The position numbers and the translations under genes are program-made. This document shows, one piece after another, positions 9,954-10,778 of a stretch of 64,000 nucleotides of DNA (position 1 is its first letter; the number at the start of each line of letters is the position of its first letter). The notes beneath the pieces were generated by a model. The model was not told the origin of the DNA. It ran no database searches and saw nothing but the letters and a program-made list of their open reading frames with translations. Where the stretch lies: the NCBI GenBank assembly GCA_037042915.1, contig CM073196.1:868001-932000 (forward strand), read 5' to 3'. The stretch comes from Auricularia sp. M13 (taxonomy: Eukaryota > Basidiomycota > Agaricomycetes > Auriculariales > Auriculariaceae).

Positions 9954-10778
9954 ATGGCCCGCACCAAGGTCAGTGCGCTTTAGATTTTTTGAAACCTATG
10001 TTGTGGTCGCCGTGCGCAAAGCGCCCTGGACGCTGGCGGACACGACGTCGTCGTGCTCGTCGTCGGCGACGGCGGCGGCGGCGGCGGCGACCCTGCTTGT
10101 TTTTTGACTTGTATTCTTTTGGACACAACGCTGACGTCTTCCTTCTTGCATATTTTTCAACTGCTCGCTCCCTGCTCGGCCTCCTTCGTCGCCCACAATC
10201 GCATCGCAAAACGGCCACGTTGGGGGCGGATGGTGCGACCGGAACCTGTGCTTTCAAACCCCGCTCGGCCGAACAACGGACTATTCCCGATATGGCAACT
10301 TCCGTCCGCACAACAGCAAACCGCCCGCAAGTCCACCGGTGGCAAGGCGCCCCGCAAGCAGCTCGCGACCAAGCAGGCTGCGCGCAAGAGCGTGCAGACT
10401 CCCGCCGGAGGTGTCAAGAAGCCCCATCGCTTCCGGCCGGGTACCGTCGCCCTGCGTGAAATCCGTCGCTACCAGAAGAGCACGGAGCTGCTCATCCGCA
10501 AGCTGCCCTTCCAGCGCCTCGTGCGTGAGATCGCGCAGGACTTCAAGGTGTGTTAGCTGTGCATCTCTCTAGTGTGCTTGCGTCTTTGCTAACGCGCTGT
10601 GTAGACGGATCTGCGCTTCCAGTCCTCCGCTGTGCTCGCCCTTCAGGAGGCGTCCGAGGCCTACCTCGTCTCGCTCTTCGAGGACACCAACTTGGCCGCT
10701 ATCCACGCCAAGCGCGTCACCATCCAGCCCAAGGACCTCGCCCTCGCCCGCCGCCTCCGCGGCGAGCGCACCGCCTAA
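9954..10778 (+). CDS. Histone H3 with a variant N-terminal tail
   Basis: Model: exons 9954-9968, 10317-10547 and 10605-10778, giving 139 residues against the usual 136. Exon 1 encodes only MARTK. The histone fold is close to canonical ([68 protein letters not shown]... with normal order), so it should pack into nucleosomes. The tail is unusual: [17 protein letters not shown] replaces K-AARKSAPATGGVKK, adding one residue after K23 and another between S28 and GG; Y41 is Phe and the C-terminus ends RGERTA. Intron 1 (348 bp) is long for this window and holds a run of ggc repeats. The gene sits alone, without a neighbouring H4 gene. It may be a replacement or specialised variant. Confidence 0.93.

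Follow-up and report, generated by a model that had tools for sequence, protein, structure and literature searches.

A histone H3 paralog with a lengthened tail around K27 in Auricularia sp. M13 and its possible replacement-type role

Introduction

Does a histone H3 gene whose tail is longer than the canonical one on both sides of K27 depart from an otherwise invariant protein, or is this simply how H3 looks in the fungus that carries it, and what might such a gene be for? The question is raised by a locus within 64,000 nucleotides of contig CM073196.1 of Auricularia sp. M13 (assembly GCA_037042915.1, positions 868,001 to 932,000 of the forward strand), a stretch that was analysed as a whole and is referred to here as the window. 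The original prediction, made from the letters of the window, had described the locus as a functional H3 variant with two extra residues in a tail that is elsewhere nearly invariant.

A precedent for altered basidiomycete tails is the Schizophyllum commune H3 study, whose authors we take to be Vonk and Ohm. It reports S28T, P30N and A29_P30insA after K27 for the S. commune H3, "similar changes" for that of Coprinopsis cinerea, K27 surroundings that vary in basidiomycetes but not in ascomycetes across 49 fungal genomes, and the lack of a band when S. commune was probed with a mammalian H3K27me3 antibody (PMC8046757); one best BLAST hit per genome was used there, so that paralogs went uncompared (PMC8046757). 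Noncanonical H3 variants are, moreover, known in Basidiomycota (PMC6703697), in which replicative and replacement H3s arose independently (PMC4054674), and, given these variants and the published post-K27 insertion, the general phenomenon is already known.

Results and Discussion

Structure and product of the window gene

The gene and the segments of interest are laid out as follows (window coordinates, canonical residue numbering):

9554..9953, + strand: 400 bp upstream, without CACGTG and without the scanned TATA-like strings
9954..9968, + strand: exon 1 (M-ARTK), ATG at 9954
9969..10316, + strand: intron 1, 348 bp, GT..AG
10317..10547, + strand: exon 2, Q5 to K79
10371..10388, + strand: K23-Q-A-A-R-K27 segment, exceeding the canonical length by one residue, with AARK beside K27 kept
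10389..10418, + strand: S28-VQTPA-GGV-K36 segment, longer by one residue than in canonical H3 and as long as in the other six non-centromeric H3 loci found
10431..10433, + strand: Phe41 codon
10548..10604, + strand: intron 2, 57 bp, GT..AG
10605..10778, + strand: exon 3, including TAA
10635..10637, + strand: Leu90 codon, where the core (105 residues) shows its sole difference from the H4-linked subtype of H3 in this genome

The altered tail sequence, the exon coordinates and the splice sites of the original prediction hold, both introns being bounded by GT..AG. The encoded protein comprises 139 aa including Met, ends in GERTA and is two residues longer than canonical H3, from which it differs in the alignments by one additional residue between K23 and K27, another between S28 and G33, and Y41F (the canonical references being two PDB H3 sequences and, in a MAFFT alignment, three canonical H3s taken from contigs of eukaryotic contaminants); K23 to G34 spans 14 residues as opposed to 12 in eight contaminant H3s. 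The residue inserted between S28 and GG and the Phe in place of Y41 had been called correctly, whereas the "extra Gln after K23" stands only as a single addition between K23 and K27, as the identity of the inserted letter depends on the alignment and is, against the gene's own paralogs, an Ala following a shared Gln. K4, K9, K14, K18, K23, K27 and K36 are all present, the Pfam Histone profile is matched with 154 bits over positions 2-122 of 122, and the best 60 of the 211 PDB matches are all named H3. Judged by its sequence, the window gene is a core histone H3, with a histone fold and an H3-type N-terminal tail.

Some other ideas about the locus were set aside. Alternative splicing was rejected as the source of the tail, the altered segment lying within exon 2 and away from both introns, and so was a cenH3 identity, as the core is near-canonical and a separate cenH3-like gene exists (L015, G000:C1:3775k; its tail retains an 18-residue stretch). 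The remark that the variant would affect the residue bound by JAK-type proteins fits a fungus poorly (fungi are not known to have JAK kinases), and this link was dropped on account of the host. Divergent from the H3 gene, a gene that is presumably a Cdc42-like Rho GTPase gene occupies window 7909-8600 on the minus strand.

A twin locus and the age of the tail

An identical protein is encoded by a second locus (L012) on the same contig, ~130 kb off, whose first exon (ATGGCCCGCACCAAG) is followed by a 331-bp intron matching intron 1 of the window gene in place and phase. The two coding sequences differ by 38 synonymous and 0 nonsynonymous changes (dS about 0.48), 10 and 0 of which, respectively, fall within the tail (first 44 codons, Met to F41); if changes were random over site types, the chance of seeing no nonsynonymous one would be about 4e-23 for the whole sequence and 1e-6 for the tail. 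When window positions 1-40000 were compared with the 9.9-kb L012 locus (blastn, E 1e-4), the sole similarity was found at 10312-10778, a stretch covering exons 2-3, intron 2 and a few bases next to them, with no similarity detected in intron 1, the promoter or the flanks at this threshold. Since the protein has stayed intact and unchanged with respect to L012 while its surroundings diverged, the codon comparison marks the altered tail as old and held by strong purifying selection. The earlier view of the gene as a functional variant rather than a decayed one is borne out by the same synonymous-only differences, and what the comparisons describe is a real, conserved and functional H3 paralog.

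The H3 complement of the genome

A protein search for H3 in the assembly containing the window (G000: 52 Mb, 14 contigs) returned 19 matching rows, which resolve into seven non-centromeric H3 loci, the cenH3-like gene and one chance row (E = 2.67), the count being that of a six-frame scan of a single assembly in which a missed copy is possible. A Pfam histone search gave 17 rows, four of them weak (C8:3287k, C2:3629k, C3:2632k and C12:551k) and unmatched by the H3 query even at E 10.

The canonical K23-G33 segment occurs in none of the seven loci, all of which have ten steps from K27 to K36 instead of nine, plus F41 (for L013, this was read from separate pieces with splice sites placed by eye). 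In this genome, the longer post-K27 spacer and F41 are the norm; the claim of a departure from an otherwise invariant H3 finds no support, both features being common to 7/7 non-centromeric loci. That the tail might be no more than the norm of the clade, a possibility raised with the original prediction, is largely what these seven loci and the published insertion in a mushroom-forming basidiomycete (PMC8046757) indicate. Looking for further H3 genes in the same genome had been suggested as a check, and its outcome is divided: the spacer and F41 are genome-wide, but the K23-K27 residue, SVQTPA and L90 are subtype-specific, the extra K23-K27 residue, the distinct 28-32 segment (SVQTPA) and L90 being found, among the seven loci, only in the window gene and L012.

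The remaining loci include two further pairs, L009 and L010 (both on C2) sharing one tail subtype, with L010 adjoining an H4 gene, and L011 and L014 (both on C1) sharing another; the pieces of L013 read KQARKTAA, APTGGVKKPH and, past a further intron, FRPG. Over the three subtypes that have an intact member, the K27 context is AARKS in the window subtype and QARKT and KASKT in the others, which, as read from the residues, makes the window subtype the most canonical of the three at K27 itself. S28 is kept in the window gene and L012, and L009, L010, L011, L014 and the L013 piece KQARKTAA have T28. Over the 105 residues that run from G33 to the C terminus, a single one, residue 90 (L vs M), sets the window protein apart from L009/L010, and two, residues 90 and 96, set it apart from L011. 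L009 and L010 differ from each other by 29 synonymous and 0 nonsynonymous changes over the whole protein; nonsynonymous counts between subtypes were left out, as they include two-step serine codon changes.

A close comparison for the window gene is the H4-linked subtype (L009, L010), which shares its core bar one of 105 residues, its additional K27-K36 spacer residue and its F41, the tail contrast between the two involving ASKQARKTAAPST, in addition to residue 90. Unlike the window gene, the H4-linked genes have a short first intron in another phase and a CACGTG promoter element: intron 1, of phase 0, measures 348 bp in the window gene and 331 bp in L012, as against 54-64 bp and phase 1 in L009, L010, L011 and L014.

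Two of the loci show broken frames. In L014 (4624-5151, G000:C1:7439k), of the KKASKTSASATGG subtype, a one-base insertion after SSAVMALQ breaks the frame, making this either a recent pseudogene or an assembly error, with its near-identical sister L011 being intact. L013 (G000:C1:7594k, minus strand) has about six introns by eye and lacks one base between LAS and KQARK, its pieces otherwise reading as conserved, and is likewise a pseudogene or an assembly error.

Promoters

Within 400 bp upstream, CACGTG is present in 4/4 of L009, L010, L011 and L014 and in all four H4 genes with a pattern-located start (one of which shares its spacer with L010), as well as in the 701-bp spacer that separates the H2B match of L016 from its H2A match, whereas the same 400 bp lack it in the window gene, L012, L013 and the cenH3 gene (0/4); further out, it is met at -1109 in L012 and at -474 in L013. 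TATA-like strings from the scanned set occur in the H2A/H2B spacer and upstream of L009, L010, L011, L014 and the four H4 genes, and none was found in the 400 bp upstream of the window gene (9554..9953). A fifth, intron-split H4 locus (L058) was without CACGTG in a roughly placed 600-bp stretch. The background frequency was 31 occurrences in 177,912 sampled genome bases, or a probability of about 0.067 per 400 bp. CACGTG was, however, found and counted on mostly the same promoters, with the H2A/H2B spacer as the only unused test and the H2B locus L017 left out of the count, and the promoters are related within each of the pairs L009/L010 and L011/L014, so the pattern is supporting rather than independent evidence. 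The element, a candidate for histone coordination at the H3, H4 and H2A/H2B promoters that may drive S-phase expression, mostly lies about 160-200 bp upstream, often together with TGTTGA and a TATA-like box (L009, L010, L011, L014, L016, L054-L057).

K27 machinery

A search with the CXC profile points to two loci, the C8 match exceeding the Pfam cut-off and the weaker C7 match falling short of it:

L049/L051, G000:C8:2633k: E(z)-like, CXC + SET-like exons
L050/L052, G000:C7:3466k: E(z)-like, CXC + SET-like exons

The open-frame pieces on C8 have CXC above the cut-off and SET just below it (22.0 vs 22.4), and in those on C7 both are below, the two loci resembling each other over CXC and SET. 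Four of the five PDB sequences listed for the C8 CXC piece are of the EZH2-SUZ12 type (E 4e-4; presumably those of Chaetomium), the fifth being unrelated, and the C7 CXC piece had no PDB match. Neither locus is among the 16 rows of a general SET profile search, and a VEFS-box search found no match in the genome with its controls equally silent, so that absence is not implied. The SET motif of both loci reads RFINHAD at the site where the usual motif is NHS..PNC. A K27 methyltransferase is likely to be present in the genome, as far as these loci can tell, which makes enzyme loss a poor explanation for the altered tails. As for the published picture, E(z) was perhaps lost in the Basidiomycota ancestor, with another copy gained by Agaricomycetes (PMC9692433), and basidiomycete E(z) falls in an early clade (PMC9018016).

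Three K27 neighbourhoods (AARKSV, QARKTA, ASKTSA) and two E(z)-like loci in one genome also gave rise to the idea that K27 is addressed by histone subtype, each E(z) being tuned to one H3 subtype and polycomb-type marks being placed by histone identity; by analogy with ATXR5/6, which methylate K27 only on plant H3.1 (PMC9409234), this could be imagined, and we consider it improbable. Two nearly identical SET genes were also seen about 28 kb apart on opposite strands (L028 and L029, G000:C10:3460k and 3488k), both of which carry what we take to be a PHD-finger-like stretch.

A replacement-type H3?

With a slightly better than even chance, as we see it, the window gene is a functional basidiomycete (Agaricomycete-like) core H3 of the replacement (replication-independent, "H3.3-like") type. 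Replicative/replacement H3 divergence usually involves residue 31 and residues 86-89 in the numbering of the source (PMC3380720); the positions given elsewhere are 31, 41, 87 and 90 for vascular plants and 31, 87, 89 and 90 for animals (PMC9409234). In other kingdoms, it is residues 31 and 86-90 that set the two classes apart (PMC3380720 Table 3, PMC3342937, PMC9409234); residues 87 and 90 are needed for HIRA and DAXX binding (PMC9409234). The window gene differs from the H4-linked H3 near residue 31 (the tail segment) and, within 86-90, at residue 90 only; of these two types, we infer the H4-linked one to be replicative. As only 90 differs among fold positions 87, 89 and 90, the motif of the window gene is S-A-V-L, a combination also listed for Tetrahymena H3.1 and the putative H3.1 of Porphyra and Thalassiosira (PMC3380720 Table 3), and L90 alone therefore gives no direction toward replacement. 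Against the reading, too, are the two introns of the H4-linked genes, given that intron presence then separates no classes, and an F41 common to all subtypes. Taken together, the residue differences, intron anatomy and promoters tip the balance towards a replacement-type H3 that accompanies a replicative set, the extra K23-K27 residue and L90 being the likely marks of the replacement type.

Were this so, the H4-linked type, with the CACGTG promoter of other histone genes, would supply H3 in S phase, and the window gene and L012 would supply it at other times; window-type H3 might use a chaperone route of its own, for which residue 90 is the cue, and the fungus's enzymes for K27 and K36 would presumably either tolerate the longer K27-K36 spacer or be matched to it. 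Like the window gene, animal and plant H3.3 differ from the (here presumed) replicative H3 around 31 and at 90; they have a separate promoter, as the window gene may have too, and the Leu90 of plant H3.3 is that of the window gene (PMC3380720 Table 3). Unlike H3.3, the window gene has a replicative-like S87 and V89 and a longer tail, and its host, unlike H3.3 systems, has introns in its presumed replicative genes as well. As replacement variants arose independently per lineage (PMC3380720, PMC4054674), the H3.3 likeness is one of analogy and not of orthology.

As for the rival explanations, that the gene is a pseudogene or an assembly artefact would be suggested by the one-base frame breaks in two of the seven H3 loci of this assembly (L014, L013), but the window gene is open, its introns are GT..AG, and none of its 38 differences from L012 is nonsynonymous; chance and sequencing error are excluded by an identical protein from an independent locus that differs at 38 synonymous sites, leaving this explanation with a vanishing probability. 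It is rather unlikely that the gene is one of several redundant H3 copies whose K23-G33 linker drifts, with no function in the differences, as K27 methylation was lost or relaxed. Three subtypes with three different linkers, the L011/L014 type having even lost R26 near K27, speak for such drift, and H3K27me3 went undetected in S. commune with a mammalian antibody (PMC8046757). Free drift is, however, contradicted by differences that are all synonymous, both in the tail when the window gene is compared with L012 (10:0) and along the entire protein when L009 is compared with L010 (29:0), and two E(z)-like loci with CXC and SET parts are retained (the support for one being weak), which makes a K27 enzyme likely.

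A stage-specialised H3, acting in spores, the fruiting body or basidia in the manner of plant generative-cell H3s, would fit the divergent tail and a promoter of its own devoid of the common histone element, but two diverged loci whose proteins are identical, together with a core close to the canonical one, suggest a widely used histone, and we regard this specialisation as improbable. The replacement-type reading is the one that we lean towards, and, if true, it would be an instance from a fungus of the replicative/replacement H3 split around residue 31 and at 90, which happened independently in animals and plants.

Comparison with published and other H3s, and practical consequences

The window gene fits the basidiomycete H3s with a lengthened post-K27 segment, having one residue inserted between K27 and K36. 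It shares with the S. commune H3 the one extra residue just downstream of K27 and the presence of K4, K9, K27 and K36, and differs from it (S28T, P30N) in keeping S28 and having SVQTPA (PMC8046757). The S28T change, absent from the window gene and L012, was treated as not clade-defining because it is reported for S. commune itself, and the extra K23-K27 residue of the window gene finds no mention in the main-text section on H3 of that study (PMC8046757). A literature text search did not find the tail letter strings, a result of little weight given that sequences are rarely printed in running text. F41, in turn, is the plant H3.1 residue (PMC9409234), is also present in contaminant contig L040, and is not unusual.

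As the textbook tail is in no H3 locus found here, mammalian H3K27 antibodies and position-based mark assignments need testing first. The subtype-specific K23-K27 and 28-32 contexts should make the peptides separable by mass spectrometry (e.g., KQARKTAAPSTGGVK), and K27 methylation of each subtype should thereby be measurable.

A scan of viral contigs gave one distant H3-like locus, and one of bacterial and archaeal genomes gave 13 loci (eukaryotic contaminant contigs among them), eight of which are readable from K23 to G34 and have the canonical 12 residues without exception (L036-L040, L042, L043, L047), with L041, L044 and L048 missing this stretch and L045 and L046 being too divergent. One of the contaminant eukaryotic H3s (L042 3001-3309) has an Asn at the K27 position (KAARNAAPAAGG).
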